Shown one piece after another: positions 26,441 to 56,976 of a DNA stretch of 64,000 nucleotides; positions within the stretch are counted from its first letter, which is position 1, and every line of letters starts with the position of its first letter. Location of the stretch: contig JAOBWM010000094.1 in assembly GCA_025463365.1 (NCBI GenBank), positions 1 to 64,000 of the forward strand, given 5' to 3'. The notes under the pieces are model-generated. The model was not told the DNA's origin. It saw only the letters and a program-made list of their open reading frames with translations, and made no database searches. Source of the stretch: Acidimicrobiales bacterium (GTDB lineage Bacteria; Actinomycetota; Acidimicrobiia; Acidimicrobiales; Iamiaceae). Made by a program: the position numbers and the translations under genes.

Positions 26441-26479
26441 CCCAGGTCAGGGGCGCTAGCCAGCGTCCTCCTGGGCCTC
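26437..26479. terminator. Hairpin downstream of tRNA-Glu and integrase
   Basis: GAGGCCCAGG (26437-26446) pairs perfectly with CCTGGGCCTC (26470-26479), enclosing the integrase stop codon. It lies between the rightward tRNA and the leftward integrase and could end both transcripts. Confidence 0.5.
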
Positions 26480-27619
26480 CGTCGTTTCCGTGTCCATCGC
26501 GCGCCCATCGCGCGGGCGGAGTTGGATCCGACGGGTGAACTCGCCGCGGGCGATGGCGTCCAGAGCGTCGGCCAGGTCCCGGTTCCGCTCCTTGGCGGCG
26601 TGCTGGTATCGGGCCGCGGCGGCACCCGAGGCCTGGCCGAGACGCGCCTGGATCTCCGCCTGCGTGGCTCCGGTCCACGCGGCCATTGTCCCGGCTGCGT
26701 GGCGCAGGTCGTGGAAGTGGTAGTGACCGAGCCCGGTGGCGACACGCGCATCGTTCCACCAGCGCCAGAGCGTTCTTGGCTGCACGGGACGCTTGCTGCG
26801 CCCAACGGCGAAGGGCGAGGTCGGTGGAGCGGTCACGTACTCGTGGAGGTGGACCGTGCATGCCTCGGCCACGAGCACGGGCATGTCAACGGCGCGCTGC
26901 CCGGCGTCGGACTTGGTCGGCAGGAGGGTCCTGCCCTGGCCCTTCAGCGACTGAACCGACTGGTCGACGTGTACGACGCGGTGGAGGAGATCGAAATGGC
27001 GACGCTCGAGGGCCAGCAGCTCACCGCTGCGGAGCCCGCACCATCCGGCAAGCAGCACGAGGGCGCGGAGCCGAGGGTCGGCGGCCTGCACCAGGGAGGC
27101 CAGCTCGTCGGGCGTGATCAGTGGCCGCTCTGGGCTCGACTCGCGACCCCCACCGTCGATTCGACACGGCTGTCGGCGCAGGATCCCATCATCGACGGCT
27201 GTCGCGCAGATCGACCGCAGCAGCCTGTACCCCTTCGCCGTGTACGGCCCGGGCGGCTGGTCGGCATACCACTTGCGCACCACCTCGGGCGTCAGGTGGC
27301 GGAGCTCCACCGCCCCGATCGACTCCATTCGCCGCTCGAGGAGGTCGATGTACACCTCCTTGGTGCGGGGCGCGAGAGGCTGTCCCTGCCGCACGCGGCG
27401 GGTGTCGATCCACGCCGCCCCGTAATCAGCCAGCGACTGCTTGGCCAACGACGGATCCGACCACTCGCCCGAGCGGGCGGCATCCTCCTGTTGGCGGGCC
27501 CACGTCTGAGCCAGTTCCCGGGTCCGGTGGGTCTTCGTGATGACCTTGGCGCCGATGCGCACCCGCGCGTCCCAGCGGGTCTGGCCGCCCGCCGTCATGC
27601 GCTTCTTTATCGACGCCAT
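26456..27619 (-). CDS. int: Tyrosine integrase (site-specific recombinase)
   Basis: 387 residues from ATG 27619; the longer frame to 27793 is not used. An N-terminal AP2-like/SAM-like arm-binding region (residues 1-165) leads to the catalytic domain: Arg197 in GWCGLRSGE, HxLR as H303-D-L-R306, and nucleophile Tyr338 in AARYQHA. The second conserved His (usually LGHS) is Gln329 (RLGQAS), a tolerated variation to be noted. Integrates and excises the provirus at tRNA-Glu. Confidence 0.93.
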   Translation of the reverse strand: MASIKKRMTAGGQTRWDARVRIGAKVITKTHRTRELAQTWARQQEDAARSGEWSDPSLAKQSLADYGAAWIDTRRVRQGQPLAPRTKEVYIDLLERRMESIGAVELRHLTPEVVRKWYADQPPGPYTAKGYRLLRSICATAVDDGILRRQPCRIDGGGRESSPERPLITPDELASLVQAADPRLRALVLLAGWCGLRSGELLALERRHFDLLHRVVHVDQSVQSLKGQGRTLLPTKSDAGQRAVDMPVLVAEACTVHLHEYVTAPPTSPFAVGRSKRPVQPRTLWRWWNDARVATGLGHYHFHDLRHAAGTMAAWTGATQAEIQARLGQASGAAAARYQHAAKERNRDLADALDAIARGEFTRRIQLRPRDGRAMDTETTEAQEDAG

Positions 27620-27736
27620 TGCGGCATCGTACGGACCGGGGGTGACGACGGGAAGGGCTAGCGAGCTCCAGCGACCACCCGTCCGGGGCTCTACCATCGG
27701 CCCCTGCGTCGCCGCGCGGGGCAGGAGGGGACGAGG

Positions 27737-28231
27737 ATGGTGACTCCACAACGGCCGACCCAACCGGGCTGGCATCCCTATGGCGTTGGTCACGAGCGAT
27801 ATTGGGACGGCACGACCTGGATCGGCTCGGTTCGACCCCTCACGCCGCCGAAGAAGGCCAGGGCCAGCCGACTCAGCCAGATCCGACCGATCGGCTGGTG
27901 CGGGATCCTGGCGGCGGCGTTCGTCATCTACGCCTGGGTCAACTACGCCTGGATCAACCCACCATCGAAGCTCGAGCGCGACGCCTCCGGTCGACGAGCG
28001 TGCACGACGTTTGTCCGCCTCACGGACGATGTCCAGGCGGGCATCGTTGCTGACGACGAGTTCCGAGATCGAGTGAGCGAGGTCTACGACGACGGCCAGT
28101 TCGCGGACTCGATCGAGGTTCGGCAGGCGTCAACGCGGCTGCTCGCCGAAGCCACCACCGGCACGGGCGACGATGCCGCTGGCACGATCGTCGCCATGAC
28201 GAACGCGTGCAGCGACCTGGCGGACGGCTGA
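27737..28231 (+). CDS. DUF2510-domain membrane protein
   Basis: 164 residues. The N-terminus QPGWHPYGVGHERYWDGTTW is the DUF2510 motif (W-P-x-G-x-x-x-R-Y-W-D-G-x-x-W). One membrane helix lies at about 52-70 (GWCGILAAAFVIYAWVNYAW), and the remaining ~90 residues contain two cysteines. Transcribed divergently from integrase and on the opposite strand to the phage late genes, as first gene of a three-gene rightward unit. A lysogenic function (membrane-level exclusion or host modification) is possible but unproven. Confidence 0.7.
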   Translation: MVTPQRPTQPGWHPYGVGHERYWDGTTWIGSVRPLTPPKKARASRLSQIRPIGWCGILAAAFVIYAWVNYAWINPPSKLERDASGRRACTTFVRLTDDVQAGIVADDEFRDRVSEVYDDGQFADSIEVRQASTRLLAEATTGTGDDAAGTIVAMTNACSDLADG

Positions 28232-29599: not shown

Positions 29600-30517
29600 T
29601 CAGCCGGCCGACGGCGGGGCCTGGAGGACCGGGACCTTGTCGAGGGTGGCCGGGTCGGCCAGCGGGATCTTGTCGACGGCCGCCACCTGACCGATCCAGA
29701 TCAGCAGGTTCAGGGTGGCGCGGTCGGGGACGTGCCAGCGGCCCTCGTCGGTGATGATCCAGGCCTTGTGGTCGCGGGGGTCGCGCAGTACGACGGCGCG
29801 GCCGGCCTTGCCGAGCCCGGCCTTGACGTCCTCGAGCTGGCGGCTGATCTTGGCCAGGCCGTCGGTGATGGTCTTGATGTCGCTCATGGAGAGCTCCTCG
29901 GTGGTGGAGGGGGTGGGGTGGGGGTGGCTGGCGGGCCAGTGGATGAGCGGGCAGTCGTCGTCGATGTCGTTGGGGTCGATGTTCCCGAGGTGCAGCAGGG
30001 TCACCGGGAGCAGCTGGTGCATCGACGCGTGGGGCGAGGTGCGGCGCGGGCTGTCCCACCCGTGCGCGTTGGTCTGCCAGCCGTAGCGGGCTCCGATGAG
30101 CCCATCGGCGTGCCAGGCGTCGATGACTCCGGCCGAGCCGTAGATGCCGATGACCCCAGCGGCGGCGCGGAACCCGCGGCCGTAGGCGATCGTGCGGGAT
30201 CCGGCGACTCCGCTGTCGCACGTGGCGATCGCCGGCACCGAGGCGGGGACGCCAAGGGCGCGCATGACGGTCCGGGCCCGTTGACCGTCTCGGACGCCGG
30301 CGTCGTACCCGTCGAGGGCCCGGGTGGCGGTGGTCTCCCAGATGTACCAGCGACCGAACCCGGCGGTGCCGTAGCCGTCGTCCTCGGCCTTGCCGGTGGC
30401 CTTCCAGTCGTCGGCGTGGCCAGCCGGGTTGTCGAGGTACCGGCCGACAGCGACGGCGTGCACGGTGCGGAGGGCATCGTGGTCGAGCGGGTGCGTCGAG
30501 TCGTAGCCGAGCGCCAT
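29600..30517 (-). CDS. Endolysin with DUF1906 glycoside-hydrolase-like domain
   Basis: 305 residues. Residues 1-200 are a DUF1906 (Rv2525c-like) TIM-barrel domain: GYDSTHPLDHDALRTV, VGRYL, FGRWYIWETT, GVIGIYGSAGVIDAW and DDDCPLIHWP. Residues 211-305 form a separate module: an amphipathic helix (KTITDGLAKISRQLEDVKAGL), then a small domain with HKAWIITDEGRWHV. At residue 211 an in-frame ATG (29887) is preceded by AGGAG at 6-nt spacing, so the C-terminal module may also be made alone. Cell-wall lysis is inferred from fold and from the adjacent holin gene. Confidence 0.8.
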   Translation of the reverse strand: MALGYDSTHPLDHDALRTVHAVAVGRYLDNPAGHADDWKATGKAEDDGYGTAGFGRWYIWETTATRALDGYDAGVRDGQRARTVMRALGVPASVPAIATCDSGVAGSRTIAYGRGFRAAAGVIGIYGSAGVIDAWHADGLIGARYGWQTNAHGWDSPRRTSPHASMHQLLPVTLLHLGNIDPNDIDDDCPLIHWPASHPHPTPSTTEELSMSDIKTITDGLAKISRQLEDVKAGLGKAGRAVVLRDPRDHKAWIITDEGRWHVPDRATLNLLIWIGQVAAVDKIPLADPATLDKVPVLQAPPSAG

Positions 30518-33709: not shown

Positions 33710-35454
33710 CAGTGACCTCCGAGGTCGGGGTCGGTGCCCACGTCCAGTGCGATGAACCGGCCGTCAGGGCCAGGGGTGATCCCGTAGACCCGGAGCCAGT
33801 CGATGTGGCCGGCGGATCCGGCTCGCAGGGCAACGCGGATCGAGTCCCCGACCGCGATGCGTTCGCCGAGGCGGGGTCGGACGATGAGCGTGGTCGTCAT
33901 CTGGATGAGGCGCAGCGTGGCGAGCTGTGCTTCGACCCATGTCTGGAGCTGTGACGGGGTCATGCCGACGGGCCCGGAGATCACGACGTCGATCACCTGG
34001 CCGTCGGCCTGGCGCGTGTCGATCGCACCGGCATCGGCACCGCCCCAGAGGGCGCCGGCCGAGGATGTCGCGCGTGCCGTGGTCCGCTGGGCGCCCGGGT
34101 CAATCTGCCAGCGGACCTTGCCGAGGATGTCCCATTGCTGCACGACGAGGTCGTTGCGTCGTGCGCCCCGCCGCTTAGTCGAACGGACCTCGCGCCGACC
34201 CGACGGGAAGTCGTAGATCTCGACGCCCTCGGCGCAGACGCCCTCGAGTGCGTCATTCAGCGACTGGCCGTCAGCGTGGAACCAGGTGCCGACCTTCTCG
34301 GTGCCGTTGGGCGTGCCGTAGGAGACGCGAACTGGGCCCCACGCGCTCTTCTGTCGTCCCTCCTGCGAGTGGTGGAACAGCTCGCCGACGTGGCGAGTCA
34401 CGTCGATGGCGTGGACCGTCGACGAGCTCTCGGGCCGGATGATCCCGGAGTTGTCGTAGTAGGTCCACTCGTCCTCGTCGGTCGGCCGGAGCCGGATGAA
34501 CAAGTCGAGCGTGTACGGCGGAGGCGGCAGATAGCCGATGCCTTCCACCGGGTCGAGGGTGAAGGCCCCGCGGCGCATGTCACCGGTGACCCGGCCGGCG
34601 CCGAGGTCGGCGTTGCCGCCGGGCCAGTACTCGAGGCCGGTGAGGACGTTGTAGACGGCGAGGCTGACCAGCCCGTAGTCCTCGATGTCGATGCCAAAGT
34701 CGGGGAGCTGCACGTTGGCCTGCGCGGCGAAGGCCTGCCGGCCCCAGGGATGGGGCCCGCCGACATAGCGGGCCCGGGCCTGGATGTAGTTCTCGCCACC
34801 GACCGGGTCGCCGCGGAGCCGGACCTTGTAGCCGCCGTCGAGGCCACCGGGAACGACCTCGGCGTCGATGTCGCCGATCTCCTGCCAGCCGGTGAGGTCT
34901 CCCGATTCGAACGAACCGATCCGGTCGCCGATCAGGTTGAGGCGAGTCGGCGCACCGATGACGCGGTCAGCGGTGATTCCGCCGACGAACCCGACACCCT
35001 TGATGGTGATGGGGTCGGCGCTCAGGTCGACGGGGTCTCGAACGACGAACCGCTGACGGGCCTTCCCAGTGACCGTCGAGCCGACGATGAGCTCCCGCGA
35101 TACCGCCTTCTTGAGGTGGTACAGCGGCTTGCCCGACCGGTCCACCGCCCCGGGGATCCGGTCACCGATGATGCGAAGGTTCTGGGGGGTGTTCGGGACG
35201 ATCACGGTGACGGCGTTGCCACCCGCCTCACGCGCTCGGACGTTCGGGCCTTCGATCCGTGCGTTCCACAGCACACCCCGATCGCGGTAGCCCGGGAACT
35301 CGCCCATCCGCACCATGACCCGGCCGCCCTGTTCGTTGGGCTGGTCGTCGAGGGTGGCCGGGACGGTGCCCGGTCCGGGGTCGGGATCGGTGGGCGTCGG
35401 CAGCGTGACGGGCCCGCCGACGTAGGTGTAGACGGCGCACGGCAGGTAAGCCAT
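33709..35454 (-). CDS. Tail tip / minor tail protein
   Basis: 581 residues. Follows the tape measure gene with a 1-nt overlap. It has a P/D/T-rich start (TPTDPDPGPGTVP), then alternating beta segments, and a late part (VQQWDILGKVRWQIDPGAQRT, VEAQLATLRLIQMTTTLIV) resembling tail-associated Gp37-like or siphovirus hub proteins. Probably part of the tail tip complex. Confidence 0.6.
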   Translation of the reverse strand: MAYLPCAVYTYVGGPVTLPTPTDPDPGPGTVPATLDDQPNEQGGRVMVRMGEFPGYRDRGVLWNARIEGPNVRAREAGGNAVTVIVPNTPQNLRIIGDRIPGAVDRSGKPLYHLKKAVSRELIVGSTVTGKARQRFVVRDPVDLSADPITIKGVGFVGGITADRVIGAPTRLNLIGDRIGSFESGDLTGWQEIGDIDAEVVPGGLDGGYKVRLRGDPVGGENYIQARARYVGGPHPWGRQAFAAQANVQLPDFGIDIEDYGLVSLAVYNVLTGLEYWPGGNADLGAGRVTGDMRRGAFTLDPVEGIGYLPPPPYTLDLFIRLRPTDEDEWTYYDNSGIIRPESSSTVHAIDVTRHVGELFHHSQEGRQKSAWGPVRVSYGTPNGTEKVGTWFHADGQSLNDALEGVCAEGVEIYDFPSGRREVRSTKRRGARRNDLVVQQWDILGKVRWQIDPGAQRTTARATSSAGALWGGADAGAIDTRQADGQVIDVVISGPVGMTPSQLQTWVEAQLATLRLIQMTTTLIVRPRLGERIAVGDSIRVALRAGSAGHIDWLRVYGITPGPDGRFIALDVGTDPDLGGH

Positions 35455-38159
35455 CAGCCTCGCCCCGCTCGGAAGAACTCGTTCATCGTCGACCTGGTGG
35501 CCGCGGTCTGCGCGTGCCGCACCTGCCGGGATGTCCCCTGGCTGATGTGAGTGATCGCGATGTTCGTGGTGTTGTGGACGATGTTCCCTTCGCTGCCAGT
35601 GGTCGAGCCGAGGCTCGTTCCGCTGCTCGAGCTCTTCACCTGGCGAGGACGGGGTCCGCCGATCGGCTGGCCGTCGGGAAGGCGCGGCACGCCGGGTGCG
35701 GCCGCGTTGTCCTCGAACGCCACGGCGACGTTGACGGCATGCAGCAGGGCGGCGATGCGTGCCGCCAACGGCGAGTTGGGGTCGAGCTGGTCGTAGAGCG
35801 CCTTGAGCCGCTCGCTGTACTCCTGGAGGCCAGCGACGGGGCCGTGCTGCGCCGTCTCGACGTCGCGGAACGCCTGGGCCTGTGCCAGCACGGCCAGGTT
35901 GAGCTTGTCCTGGGCGACGCGCTGGTCGGCGGCCGCCTGCTGGAGGATCTTCGACTTGGCCACGCCGTCGGCGGCGACCTGGGCCTGCTTCTCGCGGACC
36001 TTCTGCTCGGCGTCCACGATGGCCGCGTTGGCCTCGGAGATCTTCTCCTTCGCAGCTACGACCTGCTTGTCGCCCTCGATGCCGGCCTTCTGGGCGGCTG
36101 CGTTGTCGAGGATCGCCTGGGTGTGATCCTGAGCGGCCGCCTGCGCGGCGTGCTCGGCGGCGGTGGCCTGGTGCTGGGCTTCGGCCTTGTCGAGGGCCGT
36201 GGCATGGGGATCGGATCCCTTCCGGCGGGCCTCCTCGGCGGCACGGGCGGCGGCATCGGCCTTGGCGATCTCGTCGTCGCCAGTCTCGATGACCGCCCGG
36301 TGAAGGTCGAAGAGCCGACGCACGGCTTCGGCGCGAGCATCGTTGAGATCCTGCTGGGCCTTGAGCGCGTCATGCTTCCGGTCGGTGACGTCACCCTCGG
36401 CCGAGCTCAGATCCTTGAGGTCGTCGGCCTCGGCCTTCACCGCCGAGCGGTACTCGTCGCTGTTCCCGGCCGCGGCCTCGGTGGCGGCGGCGACGTCTCG
36501 CATGTCGGCCGCGACGGTGGCGCTGGCGTCGGCGAGGTTGGTCTGGGCGTCGAACACCTTCTCGGCTTCGGCGACGCGATGGTTGGCGATCTCGACCGCG
36601 CCGGCCGCGTCGAGCAGCGCCTGCGCGTACTTCGTCACCTTGGGCGCGCCGTCATCGGCGGCGGTACCGCTCGCCTTCAAGGTGGTTAGGAACGGGCCGA
36701 ACTGGGCGTTGATGTCCTTCGTCGAAACGCCTGCCTTGTGGAGCGCATCCGACAGGGTGTCGTAGGCGTTCCCCGCGACCTTCGGACCATCCGACTGCAG
36801 AACGGCTGTGAGGCTGGCGTTCAGGGCCTTGAAGTTGGCATGCGCGTGATCGAGGTTGAAGAGCTCGTATGGGTCCTTCCCCGCACCCAGCTGATCCAAC
36901 GCGTCGGAGACGCCGCCCGTGCCCTTGCCGATCCTGCTGAGGGCGGCGGTGAGGGCCGGTTCGGAGCCGATGATCTTGTCGGACTGCTTGAGGACGTCGC
37001 CGTAGCCGAGGGCCACCAGCGGCGCCATCTGAGCGACCCCGAGTAGGCCCGTGGCGAACAGGCCGGTCGACGCTGCCCCGGCCTTCGAGGCGACAGCGAC
37101 CTCCGTTGTGGCAAGGGCGTCAGCCTCCATTGCGGCGGCGTGGGCGGCCGCAGCGGCCGTCGAGGCCTCCTCGACGCCGATGCCAGTCGCCCACGCCCGA
37201 GTCAGGTTCTCCTGGGCCAGGGCGTCGGCAGCGGCCGCCTCAGCGGCCAGGACCTCGGCCGCCGCGGCCCCCTCGGTGGCGATGGCCGACTCGACGGCGG
37301 CCGCCGACTTGAGGTGCAAGGCGGTGGCGCCGCGGGCGATGACCGGGCCCAGTGCGCCGACGCCGAGCACGAGGGCGCCGACACCGGCGCCGAGCACCGC
37401 CAGGGTGCCGACGGTCTCGCGTACGGGGCCTGGCAGCTTCGTGAATGCCTGCTCGGTGGAGGTGACGAGCGGGATGAGCTTCGACCCGAGCGACACCTGG
37501 AGCCCGGTGATGACGGCCTGCAGATCCCGCTGGGTCTTGATGAAGTCCTGGTACTTCTTGAGCCCGGCATCGTTGAACTCGAGGCCGAGATCCTGCATCT
37601 TCTGGCGCAGGTCCTCGATGCCGGCTGAGCCGTTCTGGAGGATCTTGACGAGGTCGGCCCCGCCGCGCCCGAAGACCTTTCGGGCCAGGTCGGTGCGCTG
37701 GAAGCCGGCCGGGAGCGACTGGACCTTGTCGGCGATGTTGCCGAGGATCTGCTCGAAGTCGAGCAGGTTGCCGTTGCCATCGCGGGTAGCGATTCCGTTC
37801 GCCGCGACCTTGCCGTTCTGGATGTTCGTGGCGAGGATGCCCGCCGCGGTCGCGACCTTCTCGATGGGCACGCCGGCCTGTTGGGCCGCGAAGGCAAACA
37901 GCGACGCGTTCTCAGCCGACTCCCCCGTGAGCCGCTTGATCTGAGCGACCCCGGCGGCCTGCTTGGCGTAGGTGTCGACGGTCTTCTTGGCGAACGCACC
38001 GACCGCGCCGACTGAGAAGGCGCCAGCGAGGCCACCGGCCATGCCGCCCAAGCTGCCGGTGAGACCTCCGACGGCCTTGGTCGTTCCATCCACGGCCTTC
38101 ACGGCGCCGCGGTTGTCGCCGGCGATGACGAGCTGGAGCTTTGCGGTCTTGTTCGCCAT
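35454..38159 (-). CDS. Tape measure protein
   Basis: 901 residues from ATG 38159 (GTG 38162 is possible). Largest tail gene, rich in Ala, Asp and Lys, with long predicted coiled coils (about 60-240 and 480-780) and a hydrophobic stretch around 250-280 (ETVGTLAVLGAGVGALVLGVGAL). The start KLQLVIAGDNRGAVKAVDG is typical of tape measure proteins. It sets tail length; the ~900 residues imply a tail of order 130-140 nm if about 0.15 nm per residue applies. Confidence 0.9.
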   Translation of the reverse strand: MANKTAKLQLVIAGDNRGAVKAVDGTTKAVGGLTGSLGGMAGGLAGAFSVGAVGAFAKKTVDTYAKQAAGVAQIKRLTGESAENASLFAFAAQQAGVPIEKVATAAGILATNIQNGKVAANGIATRDGNGNLLDFEQILGNIADKVQSLPAGFQRTDLARKVFGRGGADLVKILQNGSAGIEDLRQKMQDLGLEFNDAGLKKYQDFIKTQRDLQAVITGLQVSLGSKLIPLVTSTEQAFTKLPGPVRETVGTLAVLGAGVGALVLGVGALGPVIARGATALHLKSAAAVESAIATEGAAAAEVLAAEAAAADALAQENLTRAWATGIGVEEASTAAAAAHAAAMEADALATTEVAVASKAGAASTGLFATGLLGVAQMAPLVALGYGDVLKQSDKIIGSEPALTAALSRIGKGTGGVSDALDQLGAGKDPYELFNLDHAHANFKALNASLTAVLQSDGPKVAGNAYDTLSDALHKAGVSTKDINAQFGPFLTTLKASGTAADDGAPKVTKYAQALLDAAGAVEIANHRVAEAEKVFDAQTNLADASATVAADMRDVAAATEAAAGNSDEYRSAVKAEADDLKDLSSAEGDVTDRKHDALKAQQDLNDARAEAVRRLFDLHRAVIETGDDEIAKADAAARAAEEARRKGSDPHATALDKAEAQHQATAAEHAAQAAAQDHTQAILDNAAAQKAGIEGDKQVVAAKEKISEANAAIVDAEQKVREKQAQVAADGVAKSKILQQAAADQRVAQDKLNLAVLAQAQAFRDVETAQHGPVAGLQEYSERLKALYDQLDPNSPLAARIAALLHAVNVAVAFEDNAAAPGVPRLPDGQPIGGPRPRQVKSSSSGTSLGSTTGSEGNIVHNTTNIAITHISQGTSRQVRHAQTAATRSTMNEFFRAGRG

Positions 38160-38162
38160 CAC

Positions 38163-42032: not shown

Positions 42033-44963
42033 TCAGGCGTTGGTGGCCCGCTGGAACCCGCGGTACTCCGCCACCGCGCCGGCGTAGATGTGGCGGATCT
42101 TGTAGGTGATCTTGTCGTTGGTGAACACGGCCCCGGTCTTGGGGTCGTCCTGGACGAAGAGCTCCGGATCCTGCTTGCCGTTGAAGAACCCGAGCTCGAT
42201 CGTCTCGATCGAGTTCGGGTCCGCGGTGACGAACCAGTCGTTGGCGTCGGTCCAGTGCGGCACCACCCGGGGCAGCATCCCCTGGTTGAAGTTGGGGATG
42301 GTGGCGTTGCTGTCGGCGGTCACCGCGACCGCGGACGTGCACAGCTCCCACGCGGTGCGCTCGAGGTCCGCCGGCACCCACAGGTACTTCGGGGTGACGC
42401 CGAGCACGTCGGCGGCCACGCCGTAGGCGGCCTGCTTGACCATCTTGGTGCGGACGGCCGCGAGGTTGTCGCGGTCGAGCAGGGCCGTCGCCGTGGTGTT
42501 GGCGTGCGATGCGTGGAACAACGCCACCGCGTCGTAGATCGTGGGGTTCGACGCCATGAGGGTGTCGATCACGAACCGGTACAGCGTGAGCGCGGCGGCG
42601 CGGGCCAGCGCCTTGGGGATGCGGCGGATGGCCCCCATGTCGTCGTTGGCGATGGCCTCGATCGTGAGGTCCTCCGTGCCGCCCTTCTTGGCCAGCGCGT
42701 AGGTCGCCTCCTCGTCGGGGGGCGAGGTGAGGGCCGTGTAGGGGTCGCCCTCGGCGACCGTCGGCAGCGCGCCGTAGCCGCCCATCCGCACGACGTGGTT
42801 CGTGCGGAAGTCCATGCGGGGCACGATCGTCGAGACGAGGTCGCGCCAGGCCTGGAAGTCGTTGCCGGTGTACTCCTTGACCAGGCTCCGGTGGAGAGCG
42901 TCGCCGAAGATCTGCCCCCAGGTGCCGGTGTTGATCGACTCCGTCTGGCGCTTCCCCTCGATCCGGGCGCCCATAGCGCTCTCGCGCAGGATCTCGAAGG
43001 CCAGCTCGGGGCTGAGGGCGTCCATCGTGGCGAGGCCGGCGATGTCGGCGTAGGCCAGCTTGATCGACGGGTAGCCCTCGCTGTAGTTGCCCTCGAGGGT
43101 GCGGTCCAGGCGCTCGACCTTCTTGTCGATCGCCTCCTTGGTGACCTGGATGTGGGGCACGCCCGGCCGCATGCCGGCCGCCTCGAAGCGCTCCCCCACC
43201 CGCTTGGTGGTCTCGATGACCCGGGTGAGGTCGGCCTCGGTGAAGCGGTCGCCGAGCTCGGCGGTGATGGACTCGGTGAGCCCCTCACCGATCCCGGAGT
43301 CGGCGACAGCCGAACGGATGAGCATGCGACCCGACGGCGCCGCCGGGTCGTAGGTGGCGACCGACTCGGACGTCGTGGTGGTGGCCCCGCCAGGGGCGGG
43401 CGTGGAGGTGGAGGTGGCCGCCGCGGTGGCATCCCCGAGGAGCGACTGGAAGGCCGCCTTGTCCTCGTCGGACGCACCCGCAAGCAGCTCGGCCAGGGTG
43501 GTCATGTTGATCTCCTCGGGGAGTTCGGTGTCGCAGATACCGCCTGCAACGGTGCGGGTGACGCGTCCCCCAGCGGAGGGGTCGGCGACGACATCGACGG
43601 AGAACACCATCCGGATGGCGGTGGACTCCTTGATCTTGCGGCCGCCCTCGACCGACTCCTTGGTGGAGTGGGCGATGTCGTGGGACAGTCCAACGAGCGG
43701 CTGGAGGCCGGCGGCCTCGGCCTCGAGCGAGGCGTCGAACGCCTCGGCGGTGTGGACGGCCGACGGCAGCAGATGGAGATCCGCCTCGAGGCCGGTGGCC
43801 GTGGCCTCGACGTTGCGGTACCCGCCGACGAGGCCGGAGATCGTCGAGGAGGCGAGCTCGGCGGTGGTGCGGTGCCGGTCGAAGGCCTTGGCGCCCTCGT
43901 AGAGCGGGGCGGCCGCCGCGACGACGGCCTCGGTGTAGCGGACGCCGTTCTTCGAGACGCCGTACTCGAGGATCTGGACCCGGAACACCCGGCCGCCGGT
44001 CTCGTCGACGCCCTTGGCCTCGAGCACCCGGCCGACCACGTACTGGTGGGCCTCGGTCGCGGCGGTGGTGCGAGCCACCGCGGTGGTCGCTGGCGCCGGG
44101 GTGGGGGCCGCCACGGTGGAGGAGGTCTTGACCACGGGCTCGAAGGTCCGGTGCTCCTCGACCTCGATGGGCGCGTCGGTGAAGGTGATGGTGCCGTCGT
44201 CTGCCATCGAGTAGCCGACCTTGAAGTAGCCCATCTGCGAGTCGCCCTCGACGGTGTAGATCACCTCGGTCTCGGTGAAGTCGCGGGGGTACACCCACCG
44301 CGTGGTCGAGTTGCCGAACTGCTCGCGCAACGCCTTCTCGAGGAGCTCTCGAACGTCGCCGTAGGTGCGGTCGCCGGGGAACGCCTCGCTGGCGCGACCG
44401 GCGGCCATCTCGAACTGGAGAATCTTCTTCTTGGTCACGGGGTCTCCTCCGAAGGGGAACGTGGTGCGGTCGCCGGCCCAGGCCAGGGTGAGCTCGTCGA
44501 ACGAGAGCTCGACGGGGGTGGGGTCGATCGTCGGGCTGTCGTCGCCGGCGGGCACGTAGGCGACGGTGATGTGCGGGGTGAAGCCGTGTGAGTTGTCGAC
44601 GGCGACGCCGATGGCCTCCAGGCCGTCGACGATGCGGCGGCGGAGCTCGTCGAGGCCGACGACGTCGGGCACGAGCCAGACAGCGTCGAGGCCGTCCTTG
44701 TGGCTGCCGGTGAAGCGGCCGGATCCGCCGGTGGTGCCGGTGAGGGGCGGGGTGTCGGCGGCGACGGCCTTCGCTACGGCGGCCACCTGCTCGGCGGTGA
44801 TGTCGAGCTGGGCGGTGTCGGGGCCAAGGAAGGCGAGGGCGACGTGGAGGTCGGCGGCGGGTTCGCCGTCGGGGATGGCGATGGCGGCCGAGGGAGCGGC
44901 TCCCACGAACAGGGCGAGCATGGCCCCGTCGTGGGTTGCCGCCTCCCTCGACCGATCGCGCAT
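42033..44963 (-). CDS. Capsid polyprotein: 2H phosphoesterase + maturation protease + scaffold/major capsid
   Basis: 976 codons without interruption. Residues 1-175: 2H phosphoesterase-like domain (H40-V-A42 in DLHVALAFLG; H131-I-T133 in PHITVAYV). Residues 176-290: a KKKILQFEMAAG module of unknown fold. Residues ~305-480: capsid-maturation protease-like (GVRYTEAV, DRHRTT, GLSHDIAHS). Residues 487-976: a short scaffold-like helix and P/T-rich linker, then an HK97-type major capsid protein (FRTNHVVRMGGYGALPTV, KYLWVPADLERTAW, RHIYAGAVAEYRGF). Internal in-frame starts with strong Shine-Dalgarno sites occur at GTG 44438 (GGAGGAG) and ATG 43505 (GAGGAG), exactly at module borders. Separate products and the fusion may both be made. 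Confidence 0.85.
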   Translation of the reverse strand: MRDRSREAATHDGAMLALFVGAAPSAAIAIPDGEPAADLHVALAFLGPDTAQLDITAEQVAAVAKAVAADTPPLTGTTGGSGRFTGSHKDGLDAVWLVPDVVGLDELRRRIVDGLEAIGVAVDNSHGFTPHITVAYVPAGDDSPTIDPTPVELSFDELTLAWAGDRTTFPFGGDPVTKKKILQFEMAAGRASEAFPGDRTYGDVRELLEKALREQFGNSTTRWVYPRDFTETEVIYTVEGDSQMGYFKVGYSMADDGTITFTDAPIEVEEHRTFEPVVKTSSTVAAPTPAPATTAVARTTAATEAHQYVVGRVLEAKGVDETGGRVFRVQILEYGVSKNGVRYTEAVVAAAAPLYEGAKAFDRHRTTAELASSTISGLVGGYRNVEATATGLEADLHLLPSAVHTAEAFDASLEAEAAGLQPLVGLSHDIAHSTKESVEGGRKIKESTAIRMVFSVDVVADPSAGGRVTRTVAGGICDTELPEEINMTTLAELLAGASDEDKAAFQSLLGDATAAATSTSTPAPGGATTTTSESVATYDPAAPSGRMLIRSAVADSGIGEGLTESITAELGDRFTEADLTRVIETTKRVGERFEAAGMRPGVPHIQVTKEAIDKKVERLDRTLEGNYSEGYPSIKLAYADIAGLATMDALSPELAFEILRESAMGARIEGKRQTESINTGTWGQIFGDALHRSLVKEYTGNDFQAWRDLVSTIVPRMDFRTNHVVRMGGYGALPTVAEGDPYTALTSPPDEEATYALAKKGGTEDLTIEAIANDDMGAIRRIPKALARAAALTLYRFVIDTLMASNPTIYDAVALFHASHANTTATALLDRDNLAAVRTKMVKQAAYGVAADVLGVTPKYLWVPADLERTAWELCTSAVAVTADSNATIPNFNQGMLPRVVPHWTDANDWFVTADPNSIETIELGFFNGKQDPELFVQDDPKTGAVFTNDKITYKIRHIYAGAVAEYRGFQRATNA

Positions 44964-45703
44964 CAGACGGCCGGGTCGGCCGGGTCGGCGGGGGTGTCGC
45001 TGGCGGGGGTGGCGGCGACCTGCTCGAGGTGCTCGACGAGCGGAGCGCGGGGCTTGTCGGCGGCGCGCTCCGCGGCGAGGGCGGCCTTGGCCCGGCCACG
45101 GTCGTCGCCGACCCAGGCGAGGACCTGGCGGGGCGTACCGGCGGGAACCTCGGCGATCACAGCGGTGCCGACGGGGCCGTCACCGGCGATGGGCTCGACG
45201 GCCTGGGGTGCACCGGCGGGCCCGCCGGCGGCCGGGTCGTGGAACCCGGGGTCGAGGTCGTCGGTGTTGACGCTCGGGTCGGGCCGGGTGTCGGCCTCGC
45301 CAGCGGCCACCTTGTCGGGGTGGGCGGCGGTGGCGGCCGAGGGCCCGGCGGCCGGGTCGTCGCCGTTGGCGGGGATGATGCGGCCGTCGGCGTCGGGCTC
45401 GCCGACCGCGCCGGACGCAGGTGGCGGGTTCTTGGGGGCGGCCTGGCGGGAGCGGCGTCGCTTGGGCGGCTCGGCTCCTTCAGGCGGCGCGGCGTACACC
45501 GGGAACAGCCCGGAGTACTTCTCGGTGGGTGCCTCGAGGAACATGAGGCCGTGCTTGCCCTCGGCATCGGGATGGGCCTCGTCGACGTCGATCATCTTCA
45601 CGCCGTCGCGGGTGACGATCACGTCGCCGGCCGGGCTGTCGAGGACGTCGGCGACCTCGTCGGGCTTCATGCCGAGCAGCTCGGCGGCTTCGGTGCGGTT
45701 CAT
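44963..45703 (-). CDS. Head-associated hypothetical protein
   Basis: 246 residues from ATG 45703, with AAAGGA upstream; ATG 45727 is also in frame. N-terminal RTEAAELLGMKPDEVADVL is helix-turn-helix-like and precedes a strand-rich part (GDVIVTRDGVKMIDVDE). A long Pro/Ala/Gly/Asp-rich disordered linker follows. The C-terminal VLAWVGDDRGRAKAALAAE is a small conserved phage motif. Stop overlaps the polyprotein start by one base. Confidence 0.55.
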   Translation of the reverse strand: MNRTEAAELLGMKPDEVADVLDSPAGDVIVTRDGVKMIDVDEAHPDAEGKHGLMFLEAPTEKYSGLFPVYAAPPEGAEPPKRRRSRQAAPKNPPPASGAVGEPDADGRIIPANGDDPAAGPSAATAAHPDKVAAGEADTRPDPSVNTDDLDPGFHDPAAGGPAGAPQAVEPIAGDGPVGTAVIAEVPAGTPRQVLAWVGDDRGRAKAALAAERAADKPRAPLVEHLEQVAATPASDTPADPADPAV

Positions 45704-45723: not shown

Positions 45724-47118
45724 TCATGGGGTGGGGGGCTGGTTGCGGGCGACCTCGCCGGCGACGTCGTCGACGCGCGAGCCGTCCGCCTGGTCGAGTT
45801 GCGGCTCGTAGGGGATGCCGGCGTAGTCCTCCCACGCCTTCTTGGAGGCGACGCGGGCTGCCTCGGGGGTCATGAGGTTGGCGGCGACTAGGCCGGTGAG
45901 GCCCTGGGCGAGGTTGGCCAGGACCTCGGCGGTGACCTGGGCGTCGGCGGCAGCGATCTCGGGACCCGTAATGGACACCGTCTCGGCCGGGTCGAGCTTC
46001 TCTTGGGAGCCGGGCACGTCAACGAGCTCGGGGAGAGTGCGTGCCTCTACTGCCTTGTCGACGACGAAGCGGAGCAGCTCCTGCTGGTAGGCCAGCCACA
46101 CGTTCTGCACGCCGCCGACGCGTCGGCGGACGGGCTCGGCCATGGTGAGGGAGGTGGCGCGGTTGGCGTCCTCGGCGTCGGCCAGCCAGGTCTTGGCCAG
46201 GCCGGCGCCGCCGGCGATGTTGGTGAGGATCGTCTTGCCGGTGTTGGTGTCCTCGAACGACCCGACGTCGGCGGTCTTGGTCGCCCACGTGACGGAGTTG
46301 TTGTGGACCTCGACGCTCCCAGACTTGGGGGCGTGGCGGCCGCCTCGGGCGGCCACGAAGGCGTCGACGGCGGTCTGGTCGCCGTCGACGGTGACGTCGA
46401 ACACGAGGTGCCGGGCGAGGGCGGTGCGGTCGATGAGGTTCCAGATCACTTGGTCGTACGCGTCGAGCCAGTCGAGGATCGGCGCGAGGAACGGGTAGCC
46501 ACGGGTGTCGGTGAGCAGCGCCTGCCATGACGCCCAGAACTCGATGTCGCCGGTGCGACGGCCGGTCATGTCGTCGACGTCGATGATGGCCAGGCCCTCG
46601 GCGTTGTCGGCGCCGGCGAGGTGGATCCGGTCGAGCCACAGTGGATTCCCGCCGACCAGGCTCACCCCCGCGATGCGCTCGGGGGCGATGATCGACAAGC
46701 GGACCCGGCCCGACATCGGCCCGACCATCGGCTCGAGGACCGTCTCGCCCATGAGCATGTGATCACGCAGCCAGATGTCACCGCCGACGTCCCGGTTGCG
46801 TCGATCGGTCCGGAACTTGTCGACGACGGCGTGGACATCGGGGACGGTGCACTGCACGGTCAGGCCGGAGTCGCCGACGCAGAACGAGGTGTAGGTGTCG
46901 ATGATCGCCTTGACCATCGGGTTGGCGCGGTAGCCGGCGACCGAGAACGTCCGGGCCCGCTCGAGGGTCCAGTCGGGGACGGCGCGAGGCCCTGCACCGA
47001 TGGCGCCTCGGAAGCCCTTGGTGTCGTCGGCGAGATCGCCCCACTGCCCGGCACCGGTCGCCGCCACCTGGGTGGCGCTCGCCTCGGTTGCTCGGACGGG
47101 GAAGAGGAAGTTCCTCAT
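45724..47118 (-). CDS. Portal protein
   Basis: 464 residues. Portal-type sequence: YRANPMVKAIIDTYTSFCVG, IWLRDHMLMGETVLEPM, FWASWQALLTDTRGYPFLAP and a long C-terminal helical part (VQNVWLAYQQELLRFVVDKA). Encoded between large terminase and capsid genes, as expected. Forms the dodecameric DNA gate at one capsid vertex. The ATG overlaps the small membrane protein's region by 4 nt. Confidence 0.85.
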   Translation of the reverse strand: MRNFLFPVRATEASATQVAATGAGQWGDLADDTKGFRGAIGAGPRAVPDWTLERARTFSVAGYRANPMVKAIIDTYTSFCVGDSGLTVQCTVPDVHAVVDKFRTDRRNRDVGGDIWLRDHMLMGETVLEPMVGPMSGRVRLSIIAPERIAGVSLVGGNPLWLDRIHLAGADNAEGLAIIDVDDMTGRRTGDIEFWASWQALLTDTRGYPFLAPILDWLDAYDQVIWNLIDRTALARHLVFDVTVDGDQTAVDAFVAARGGRHAPKSGSVEVHNNSVTWATKTADVGSFEDTNTGKTILTNIAGGAGLAKTWLADAEDANRATSLTMAEPVRRRVGGVQNVWLAYQQELLRFVVDKAVEARTLPELVDVPGSQEKLDPAETVSITGPEIAAADAQVTAEVLANLAQGLTGLVAANLMTPEAARVASKKAWEDYAGIPYEPQLDQADGSRVDDVAGEVARNQPPTP

Positions 47119-47315
47119 GGGCCCGCCTCAGGGGCCGGCGGCTTGGCGGGGACGGGCTGGGTGTGCAGGACCCAGGCCACCCACACGAGGGTCAGGCCGA
47201 ACAGGAGCAGCGCGACGAGGATCCCGACGGTGGCGCCAAGTGCCTCGGCGAAGAGGCCAGCGACGGCGCCGATGAGGAGGAGGACGCCGAGGGCGCCGAG
47301 GATCTGCTCGGTCAC
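47115..47315 (-). CDS. Small two-helix membrane protein
   Basis: 66 residues from GTG 47315. Two hydrophobic segments (ILGALGVLLLIGAVAGLFAEA and VGILVALLLFGLTLVWVAWVL), then a P/A-rich tail. Placed between terminase and portal with 4-nt overlaps on both sides. Membrane protein of unknown role. Confidence 0.65.
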   Translation of the reverse strand: MTEQILGALGVLLLIGAVAGLFAEALGATVGILVALLLFGLTLVWVAWVLHTQPVPAKPPAPEAGP

Positions 47316-49243
47316 AGGTTCAACCTCTCGGTCGGTCGGAACGGGTCGTTGCCGTCTTCGTCGACGTCAGCGGCCGCCGTGGCCGGCGCGGGCGGGGAGA
47401 CGTTCGAGTACTCGAACTCGACCTTGAGGGCCGTGGCCAGCGCCGCCATGCCGTCGACTCGAGCTGCTGCCTTGGTCCGGTCGCTCGGCTTCACGAGCAT
47501 GATGCGCTCGGCATCGTCGCGACGAACCTCTGCGGACTCCGCGCAGTAGCGGGCGACCGGATGATTGCCATGGCCGAGCAAGATGGGCTCGCCCTTGGCG
47601 ATGGCGTCGCGGTCGTGCTTCACCATCCGGTAGATCTCGGTGAGCGCCTCGGACAGTCCGTAGCCCTGGCGAACGTTCTTGATGTCGAGCCCGATGCGCT
47701 GGGCGTACTGGGCGGTCGCGGTCGCCTGGTACGGGTCGTAGCCGAGACCGAGGATCCGGAACTTGCGAGCGTCGGCGGCGATCTGGGGGTGGATGGCGAG
47801 ACCGGTGCCGGACCAGCCGAGCCCCTCGGGGTCGCCCTCATAGTCGATCCAGTCGCCCTCGGTGGCGACCAGGTGCCCGCCGGCAACCCAGCGGGTGGCG
47901 GCGTTCCCGGTGTGGCGGTCGAGGATCCGCAGCTGCTTCTCGGGGGTCCAGAACCGCCACAGCACCGCTGGCGGCAGGTCGCCCTCGGCCGGGAACCGCA
48001 GGACCCATGCCGCCAGGTCGGTGGTGGATGCCAAGTCGAGGCCGCCGAAGCAGCTGCGACCGTAGAGGTCCTTCTCGGCGAAAGTGGGCCCGGCGCTGGC
48101 GGCCCAGATCCCGGCCGCCATCCAGCGGGTGACCGGCGAGCGCCGCACGTTGAGCTGCAGCTGCTTGAAGGCCTCGAGCTTGACCGGATCGTCGACGGCC
48201 TCGGCGGCGAGCTTGCGCATGGCGTTCAGCGACTTGAACTGGCCGAGCGCCGGGTTGGCCAGATGCCAGATCGCCTCGTCGAAGGGGTCGGCGTCGGCGA
48301 GCTCCTTGGGAGTCTTGCGGACCCAGGCGAAGATGTGCGGCGCCCGGCTCGGGTCCTCGCTGATGCGCTCGGCCTCGTCGATCAGCTGGGCGCCGAAGGA
48401 CTCGGGGATGTTGGTCTCGGTGGTGATGGCGAGGAAGAGCGCCTGAACGCGAGTGCCGTCCGCGGTTCGCAGGGCGTTCCACAGGTCGCCGTTGGGCTGG
48501 GAGAGGACCTCGTCGAGCACGAAGCCGTGCGGGTTGTGGCCGAGCTCGGCGAGCGCGTCCGCCGGGATCACCTCGTAGAACGATGCCGACTTCGCGTCGT
48601 AGAGGCGACGGGCCGCCTTGTTCTCCTCGAGGCGCTTCGACAGGAGCGGCGAGAGCTCCACCATCCGCTTGGTCGGTTGGTAGACCTTCCCGGCCTGGCG
48701 GGTGTTCTTGGCGGCGCCGTAGACCTCGGCCGATTCCTCCTGGTCGCCGACGAGCAGGAACAGCACGATGGCGGCGGCCAACGCGCTCTTCCCGTTCTTG
48801 CGGGCCATGACGATGTAGGCGACCCGGTACCGCCGGACGTAACGGCCCCACTCGTGCGACCACTCGACCTCCCCGAAGAGGGGCCGGGCGATCTCCATCT
48901 CCTGCCAGTCGACGAGATCGAAGCGCCGGCGGGCGAACGGGCCCGCCGTGTGTCGCAGGATCTCCGAGCAGAAGTTGACGAAGCGATCGGCGCGCGGCTC
49001 GCAGTAGTGGGTGCCGCGCTTGCGACACCGCTTCCCGTCGAGCTCGTAGCCGCACACCGGGCCGGTGCGATGCTCGGGCCCCCGGGGCCGCCAACGGCGG
49101 GCCGGGTTGCACACCGCCGCCCTCGTGGTGCCCCGACGCCGGGGTGGCTTCTTGCCGGTGGCCTTCCTGCCCGCCGGCTTGGTCTTGGTAGTGGCGCTAC
49201 GAGAGGAGGCGCTCGGGGTCCTTGCCGTCACCGGTGCCTCCAC
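47312..49243 (-). CDS. terL: Terminase large subunit
   Basis: 643 residues from GTG 49243 (GTG 49231 possible); the start overlaps the small terminase gene by 47 nt. ATPase domain: Walker A-like MARKNGKSALAA and Walker B GFVLDEVL. Nuclease domain: FGGLDLASTTDLAAW, ILGLGYDPYQ and RVDGMAALATAL hold the metal-binding acids. An unusual N-terminal extension of ~55 basic, Thr/Arg/Lys-rich residues is followed by a Cys-rich segment (CGYELDGKRCRKRGTHYC) that may bind zinc. Packages DNA with ATP and cuts concatemers. Confidence 0.92.
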   Translation of the reverse strand: MEAPVTARTPSASSRSATTKTKPAGRKATGKKPPRRRGTTRAAVCNPARRWRPRGPEHRTGPVCGYELDGKRCRKRGTHYCEPRADRFVNFCSEILRHTAGPFARRRFDLVDWQEMEIARPLFGEVEWSHEWGRYVRRYRVAYIVMARKNGKSALAAAIVLFLLVGDQEESAEVYGAAKNTRQAGKVYQPTKRMVELSPLLSKRLEENKAARRLYDAKSASFYEVIPADALAELGHNPHGFVLDEVLSQPNGDLWNALRTADGTRVQALFLAITTETNIPESFGAQLIDEAERISEDPSRAPHIFAWVRKTPKELADADPFDEAIWHLANPALGQFKSLNAMRKLAAEAVDDPVKLEAFKQLQLNVRRSPVTRWMAAGIWAASAGPTFAEKDLYGRSCFGGLDLASTTDLAAWVLRFPAEGDLPPAVLWRFWTPEKQLRILDRHTGNAATRWVAGGHLVATEGDWIDYEGDPEGLGWSGTGLAIHPQIAADARKFRILGLGYDPYQATATAQYAQRIGLDIKNVRQGYGLSEALTEIYRMVKHDRDAIAKGEPILLGHGNHPVARYCAESAEVRRDDAERIMLVKPSDRTKAAARVDGMAALATALKVEFEYSNVSPPAPATAAADVDEDGNDPFRPTERLNL

Positions 49244-54913: not shown

Positions 54914-56611
54914 TCAGGCGTCGGCGTCGGCGTCGCCGGCGGGCTCGGCCTTGGCGCGCTCGGCGAGTACGGCCGCCACCGCGGCGCCGGCGTCGGTGAG
55001 GATGGCCACGCCGTCGGTCTCGACGATGAAGCCACGAGCGTCGAGGTCGTCGGCGACGTGGTCGTCGAGTTCGCTGGAGGCCTTCGTGAAGTCGCGGCCG
55101 AGGTGGTGCCAGAGGGCCAGCAGGGCCGCTGTGTCGGTGTCGAGCTCCATGGCGTCGACGTCGGGGACCTTCGCCCGCTCGGCCTCGGCGTCGGCCAGCT
55201 CGAGGGTCTCGAGGTCCCACGGGGTTGGCTCGTAGCCCGAGGCGATCAGGTGGCGGATGTAGGTGACGTAGGTGCGGCTGCCCGCCCTCGCGTGCGACAT
55301 CTCCTCGCCTTCGAGGAGCATGCTGGCGAGGATCCAGCGGTCCCAGCCAGCGGAACGGCCAGCGCGCTCGAGGCCGTGGAAGAAGTCCCAGGCGTCTTCG
55401 TAGTCGTCGAGGTCAGCGGGCCGGACGCCGGGCAGGTCCGGAAGCATGCGCACCACGTCGGTGATGTTCCCGTTGTTGTCGATCAGCTCGAACAGGATCC
55501 AGGCGGTGAAGTCGTCGAGGGGCAGGGTCTCGGTCTCGGCGACGAGCACCAGGCAGAACAGGGTCCGGGCCTGCTTGGCGGCAGCGGCCGCCTCGCGACG
55601 GGCGATCGCCTCGGGATCCTCCTCTGCGACCCGCGTCGCACCGGGCAGGGGCGGGAGCTTGTCGGCGGGGATCTGGACGTCGGACCTGTTCGCCTCCGGG
55701 CCGCGGTCGCTGTGGCGGAGCGGGTCGACGCACACGGTCGTCCGCTCGACCTTGTAGATCGGGCCGGGCTGACCCGGCGTCAGCTCGAGGTAGACGGCGT
55801 GGCACGGCTCAGCCTGGTGACGGCGGGCCCCACCCTCGACGAAGCCGAGCACGGTAACGGGCGCGGGACGGCTCAGGGTGTTGAGCGCGGAGGGCTTGTA
55901 CCAGTGGCCGCCGTAGCCGTCGGCGACGTACCGGGCCGTGCCGGCCTTGGAGAGCTTCGCCACCGCGTCGGCCATCGCCGCCTTCTGGTCGCGCTCCTTC
56001 ACGTGCGTGGCGAGATCGCTGGCGGGGTGCGCGACCTTGCCCATGCCGAGCCGGTGGGCGATGTGGGACATCGCCTCGTCATCGTCGGCGTAGGGCACCA
56101 GATCGGCGGCGTCGTTGAGGGTGAGGTTGCCCTGGGTGATGTGGTGGAGCAGCCGGTCGTCGAGCTGCAGCAGCGCCAGGCGCGCCTTGACGGTGGCCTG
56201 GGCCTTGCCGACCTTCTTGGCCAGCTGGGCAACGGTGGTGCCGAGCTCGACGAGGCGGGCGTAGCCCCGCGCCTCCTCGATGGGCGTGATCGACTGGCGG
56301 TGCAGGTTCTCGATGAGCATCGCCTCGAGCACGTCGGCGAGCTCCATGTCGCGCAGGACGCACGGAACCTTGGCCAACTTCGCCCTCCCGGCGGCGGTCC
56401 AGCGCCGCTCGCCGGCCACCAGGAGGTGGATGCCGTCCTCGTCCGGAGGGAGCACCAGGCAAGGCTCGAGGATGCCCTTCGACTTGATCGAGGCGGTGAG
56501 CTCGGACAGGTCGCCCAGGTCCTTGCGGATGTTGTCGGGGTGCGGGGCGACGAGGTCGTAGTCGAGCTCCACGAGCTCGAGGACGGGGGCCTTGGCGGTC
56601 TTGGTGGTCAT
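54914..56611 (-). CDS. ParB/RepB/Spo0J-domain protein
   Basis: 565 residues from ATG 56611. Residues 12-105 form a ParB N-terminal domain (VAPHPDNIRKDLGDLSELTASI, LLVAGERRWTAAG with the GERR box). HTH-like KorB/Spo0J central region follows (LENLHRQ-type IENLHRQSITPIEEARGYARL, LAKKVGKAQATVKARLALL). The ~300-residue C-terminal part has no known domain and ends in a D/A tail. May act in partitioning, as CTP-dependent clamp or as a host-gene regulator; an episomal state is not implied because integrase is present. Confidence 0.85.
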   Translation of the reverse strand: MTTKTAKAPVLELVELDYDLVAPHPDNIRKDLGDLSELTASIKSKGILEPCLVLPPDEDGIHLLVAGERRWTAAGRAKLAKVPCVLRDMELADVLEAMLIENLHRQSITPIEEARGYARLVELGTTVAQLAKKVGKAQATVKARLALLQLDDRLLHHITQGNLTLNDAADLVPYADDDEAMSHIAHRLGMGKVAHPASDLATHVKERDQKAAMADAVAKLSKAGTARYVADGYGGHWYKPSALNTLSRPAPVTVLGFVEGGARRHQAEPCHAVYLELTPGQPGPIYKVERTTVCVDPLRHSDRGPEANRSDVQIPADKLPPLPGATRVAEEDPEAIARREAAAAAKQARTLFCLVLVAETETLPLDDFTAWILFELIDNNGNITDVVRMLPDLPGVRPADLDDYEDAWDFFHGLERAGRSAGWDRWILASMLLEGEEMSHARAGSRTYVTYIRHLIASGYEPTPWDLETLELADAEAERAKVPDVDAMELDTDTAALLALWHHLGRDFTKASSELDDHVADDLDARGFIVETDGVAILTDAGAAVAAVLAERAKAEPAGDADADA

Positions 56612-56976
56612 GAGGGGGAGGTCCTTCGGTTGGTGATGGCCCGGGCGGCCGCGGTGGCCCACCCGGTCTGGGGGGTGACGACGCCGGCGGCGTCGACGTG
56701 GCAGTACGAGCGGTCGGCGGCGACCAGCCACGCGCCGCCGTAGGTCTCGGCCGCTGCCGCGGCGCGGAGGGCGGCGATCGACAGGTCCCGGATTGCTTCG
56801 CTCGAGCGCACGAGGCCGAGGCCGAGCTCGTCGAGGGCAGCGGCATCGAGGTCGATGGCCAGCACGCGGTACGAGGTGGCCCGGGGGCCAGGCGACGGCG
56901 GGAGAAGGGTCTGCTGCCCTGGAGGTTGGACCCGGTCCGCGTACGGGAGCGGGGACGTCCGCTCACCCCAGCCCAT
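56608..56976 (-). CDS. Hypothetical phage early protein
   Basis: 122 residues, ATG overlapping the upstream stop by one base. Mostly Ala-rich helices around YRVLAIDLDAAALDELGLG and SYCHVDAAGVVTPQTGWA. Unknown function; coupled to the ParB-like gene. Confidence 0.5.
   Translation of the reverse strand: MGWGERTSPLPYADRVQPPGQQTLLPPSPGPRATSYRVLAIDLDAAALDELGLGLVRSSEAIRDLSIAALRAAAAAETYGGAWLVAADRSYCHVDAAGVVTPQTGWATAAARAITNRRTSPS

Follow-up and report, generated by a model that had tools for sequence, protein, structure and literature searches.

The window, the whole 64,000-nucleotide stretch of DNA analysed here, belongs to a bacterial contig and by its gene content contains a prophage, to the left of which lie metabolic genes of the host. 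We found genes for an integrase (26456-27793), an endolysin (29600-30517), a portal (45724-47118) and a terminase (47312-49243), a ParB-like gene upstream of the packaging genes (54914-56731), and tail genes, among them an ORF that is tape-measure-like by size and position (35454-38162). The reverse strand at 42033-44963 encodes a single uninterrupted frame of 976 codons with an ATG start and zero internal stops. The predicted 104-kDa protein of 976 aa combines a 2H domain, a further module, a protease, a scaffold-like region and a major capsid protein in this order. Its start codon, ATG 44963, lacks a Shine-Dalgarno (SD) sequence and is overlapped by the stop codon of the upstream ORF (TGATG, 44961-44965, reverse strand), which makes translation by coupling to the preceding ORF probable.

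All domains of the protein are encoded on the reverse strand. The 2H phosphoesterase domain (residues 36-162; 44478-44858) matched Pfam PF13563 with an E value of 6e-12. It is followed by a module without assigned function (residues ~197-290; 44094-44375), which corresponds to the N-terminal part of phrog_29592 and is common to many relatives, and by a head maturation protease (residues ~311-460; 43584-44033) assigned to phrog_15531. A helical region (residues 487-663; 42975-43505) was designated scaffold-like (delta-like) from its AlphaFold helices and its position, its function being presumed, and a major capsid protein of the HK97 fold (residues 674-972; 42048-42944; PF25209, E 7e-43) completes the frame. 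An AlphaFold model built with 44 sequences agreed with the Pfam and PHROGs domains except for the 2H part, which was of low confidence and was excluded from use. The protease was modelled with a pLDDT of mostly ~90; residues 464-487 formed a disordered linker, and the scaffold-like helices extended from residue 487 onward. In fold searches the capsid part resembled HK97-type capsids in the PDB and the protease retrieved prohead and capsid maturation proteases, while a PDB sequence search with the fused-capsid family gave marginal Mu gpT-like matches and nothing else. Protease residues H364, S427 and D457 were conserved across the 44 sequences, D429 is a further conserved residue, and by its motif we infer an S78/HK97-like protease with predicted catalysis. 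One family, phrog_29592 (893 aa, annotation "unknown function"), spans residues 197-973 (E 5e-201) and is, on the strength of this match, the same protease-to-capsid fusion; the match omits the 2H domain.

Scanning the whole frame for ATG, GTG or TTG codons in frame with an SD match of at least 5 nt, we found exactly two sites. GTG 44438 (residue 176; 44436-44438, reverse strand) is preceded by the SD-like motif GGAGGAG (44444-44450) at a distance of 5 nt (spacer ACCCC) and is a candidate start for a product of 86 kDa that lacks the 2H domain. The conserved ATG 43505 (residue 487; 43503-43505, reverse strand) is preceded by GAGGAG (43512-43517) at a distance of 6 nt (spacer ATCAAC) and would start a scaffold-capsid protein of 490 aa and 53 kDa. 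Both sites lie at domain borders, residue 176 between the 2H domain and the next domain, and residue 487 at the end of the disordered linker and the beginning of the scaffold-like helices. The preliminary description of this locus as a single 976-codon frame with strong SD starts at these two codons was right in every detail, and its placement of the starts at module borders was borne out by the domain matches and by the linker and helix limits in the AlphaFold model.

We collected 97 usable related loci from viral contigs, phage records and genomes, with ~32-51% identity in the best segment. Protease to capsid formed one open frame in 97/97 of them, as judged on the portion seen, three loci ending at contig ends. 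Therefore a sequencing error masking stops between the modules, which the preliminary description had named as what might undo its reading, was ruled out. For the border between protease and scaffold-like region we used a representative set of 72 relatives (<90% identical, median pairwise identity 56%), and counted SD matches of at least 5 nt with an in-frame start within 5-60 codons past the protease motif DxxxxPxAGG. Such a site was present in 68/72 representatives, and the remaining four showed a start with a 4-nt or near SD match. In the alignment, nearly all relatives had ATG or GTG at the position of ATG 43505, with an AGGAG-type SD upstream. The rest of these frames contained 0.86 such sites per 575 codons, corresponding to 0.084 expected per frame in the border stretch. 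Synonymous codon shuffles that preserve the protein gave a mean of 34.9 and a maximum of 43 against the 68 observed, and the other two reading frames of the same border stretches gave 11 and 0. Limiting the set to representatives <60% identical left 25/27 with SD and start, and the border site was less RNA-structured than its surroundings in 67/72; the relatives share ancestry, so that all these conservation counts are non-independent. One locus (L017) was not alignable at the ATG 43505 column.

A codon test was based on a start residue that was picked by amino acids alone with the codons unseen. The codons at this residue were 16 ATG, 46 GTG and 1 GTC. Valine was thus encoded by GTG in 46/47 cases, compared with 39% of valines overall and 25% of those in D-V-[TPA] contexts elsewhere (p ~5e-18 if independent). 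The latter value rules out codon-context bias behind the GTG codons, and an SD arising as a by-product of conserved residues was ruled out by the synonymous shuffles together with the valine codons. We regard these patterns as signs of DNA-level selection for initiation at the border, the linker around it being difficult to align in other respects, and ATG 43505 is very probably a genuine start. A same-frame internal start codon with SD is thus conserved at this position, as in nested genes of the lambda C/Nu3 type.

Border starts were also found outside this family. The preliminary description had proposed to look for the same fusion in other phages, and among fused capsid genes from several unrelated-looking groups, 14 annotated tripartite genes and six further actinophage genes, a border ATG and SD was present in 20/20. 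In the 14 tripartite genes an SD of at least 4 nt preceded the border ATG in 14/14 cases versus 30/265 other internal ATGs (Fisher p ~8e-13, uncorrected for relatedness and for a partly informed choice of site). The SD had partly guided the choice of the border ATG; members of the ClpP-type group share one aligned methionine, which made the choice unambiguous there. This group comprises Gifsy-2, Fels-1, mEp043, JBD68, LESphi2, PSTCR8lys, yong2, Chris1 and Pmp14, and the other, prohead-protease-like tripartite type comprises RcKemmy, S1, LPPA33, MinM1 and Pd_22F, the split resting on a family match for Gifsy-2 and on alignment for the other phages. The six actinophage fusions, 6/6 with border ATG and SD, are those of RRH1, BurtonThePup, Toulouse, Count, Camille and Circum. 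Because sequence-unrelated fused genes share the border start, these comparisons suggest that fusion might be tolerated only where the capsid part retains its own start. An inner-start capsid protein from ATG 43505 in the manner of lambda C/Nu3, as first proposed from the window, is strongly supported at the sequence level by the conservation of start and SD, by the divergent relatives and by the unrelated-looking fusions.

GTG 44438 is somewhat more likely than not to be used as a start as well. At 92% of frame positions RNA structure was stronger than at this codon, but similar sites occurred at about one per ~670 codons elsewhere in the frames of relatives, and this one, taken alone, may be due to chance. 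No relative was alignable at GTG 44438, because the N-terminal modules differ among relatives, and a search of viral contigs for close relatives of residues 1-300, the N-terminal third, found none. Four relatives (L038, L059, L063, L091) carry an AGGAGG-type SD with an in-frame ATG ~13-15 codons before the protease core, possibly a second nested start like GTG 44438. The 2H-bearing relatives L008, L054 and L073 have a GTG with a 4-nt SD just before the protease. Of the two His-x-Thr/Ser motifs of 2H phosphoesterases, the window protein has the second as H-I-T and, in place of the first, H-V-A and not H-V-T (HVT or HLT in relatives), yet it passed the Pfam 2H profile; the domain may be divergent or weakened. 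Judged by predicted domains, the N-terminal slot is interchangeable among relatives. A peptidoglycan-binding domain (PG_binding_1) occurs in frame with protease and capsid in L051, L056 and L061, and other N-terminal modules are DUF6582 (L011), and a zinc-ribbon-like CxxC module (L003, L006, L024), while L053 gave a weak TUDOR-like match. A frame of >1150 aa in another genome within the order (L021:1-3450, reverse strand) pairs a 2H domain with a weak match to intein splicing.

Effantin et al. are said to have described, in 2010 (Virology 402:355), a tripartite capsid gene in Salmonella phage Gifsy-2. As in Gifsy-2, protease, scaffold-like region (a presumed role for residues 487-663) and HK97-fold capsid of the window protein lie in one frame, and codon 221 of the Gifsy-2 gene, which marks the corresponding protease-scaffold border, is an in-frame ATG preceded by an SD. 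Unlike the window protein, Gifsy-2 has neither a 2H domain nor the extra module, and similarity between the two is confined to the capsid part. The Gifsy-2 protease matches ClpP, whereas that of the window matches prohead and head maturation families, so that by these family matches the architecture is shared and the protease lineage is different. In lambda, an in-frame internal start in the protease-scaffold gene C/Nu3 yields the scaffold alone. There the capsid protein E has a gene of its own, whereas the window frame has the capsid within the nested product.

The protease-scaffold-capsid fusion itself is not new. It is known from MD8-like phages (PMC8508860) and from the RcC phages of Rhodobacter, and capsid-protease fusions of small actinophages from several clusters have been described, as fusions only (PMC7302621, PMC5513430). 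BurtonThePup 5, Toulouse 6, Count 19, Camille 14, Circum 12 and RRH1 Orf7 are single-frame fusions like that of the window; none of these six was among the matches listed when the window protein served as tblastn query. Head proteins that carry 2H domains have precedents as well. Such domains have been found on MuF and portal proteins, the named partners among polyvalent proteins, and counteraction of nucleotide signalling was proposed (PMC5512222). Gordonia phage Lilbeanie gp16 carries a 2H domain on a capsid protease, as here; its major head protein is encoded separately. Within the open literature, which was the scope of our search, we found no description of a conserved internal start in fused capsid genes.

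The single frame, the order of its domains and the conservation of the inner start were directly established. We have high confidence that they represent a nested gene set, in which the inner start supplies the bulk of scaffold-capsid protein and the upstream starts a minority of fusions. We infer the product ratio, co-assembly, cleavage and the use of GTG 44438 as follows. Most product would arise from ATG 43505, giving the 490-aa, 53-kDa scaffold-capsid protein, which can be compared with HK97 gp5. A smaller share of ribosomes would start upstream, at GTG 44438 (86 kDa) or, via coupling, at ATG 44963 (104 kDa), and add to the N terminus of this capsid protein the protease, alone or together with the 2H domain. 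These long forms would co-assemble via their capsid part, which would ensure that a limited number of proteases is built into each procapsid; the 2H domain may be carried in with them. The protease would then cleave both the long forms and the scaffold region, after which the shell would mature.

Alternatively, only the full-length polyprotein might be made and all capsid subunits be released by proteolysis, with the SD and start as a relic of separate genes joined by stop loss. The universal fusion in the family (97/97 loci) and a protease able in principle to separate the parts agree with this, and the Gifsy-2 and MD8 authors give one gene for all three functions. A relic would however decay, yet start and SD are kept at the median identity of 56%, with GTG at 46/47 border valines. 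Furthermore, an all-long assembly would be hard to fit: 415 full-length chains would take up ~63-109% of the interior and the inner product 17-29%, in a volume estimate that assumes T=7 and an inner radius of 200-240 angstrom from general knowledge. We therefore consider a polyprotein alone improbable. We give even less credence to the conserved E-[ES]-x-[MV] being a protease cleavage site under protein-level selection. Within the linker between protease and scaffold, this motif is indeed conserved at the residue level, but the near-exclusive GTG at valine indicates selection on codons, synonymous shuffles destroy the pattern, and methionine and valine, which interchange here, are the residues of ATG and GTG; a cleavage site and an internal start could also occur together at residue 487. 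SD-like motifs inside genes have been linked to pausing, but a translational pause for protease folding before capsid synthesis would not require a start codon at a set distance, and with start, frame and spacing all conserved we attach next to no weight to a pause site that is not a start.

Because the border start recurs in at least 68/72 relatives and in 20/20 other fused-gene phages, the nested-gene reading suggests that capsid "fusions" might be nested genes, with many shell proteins and few protease-tagged ones. A shell requires hundreds of subunits, and there is neither room nor need for hundreds of proteases. The conserved inner start would resolve this stoichiometry puzzle of fused protease-capsid genes, and is open to testing in isolated phages by altering single codons. 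Many records probably mis-annotate the major capsid protein as a protease or fusion of 500-980 aa, which affects proteomics, capsid-size prediction and taxonomy. A broader scenario, which we offer as speculation and think rather unlikely to hold in full, is that fused capsid genes of tailed phages in general are nested sets fixing the protease dose through internal initiation, and that, in the family of the window protein, the slot before the protease docks interchangeable domains (2H, peptidoglycan-binding, zinc ribbon, DUF6582). Tethered to few capsid subunits, such domains would enter the head and might be delivered along with the DNA, the 2H domain countering nucleotide-based host defence.

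Searches of 99 near genomes and of 396 from the phylum gave, outside the window, just one 2H match and one unfused capsid match. In one genome from this phylum (L109, G365), a capsid homologue lies in a frame of only ~343 aa and is apparently unfused, and this relative might be useful for dating the fusion.
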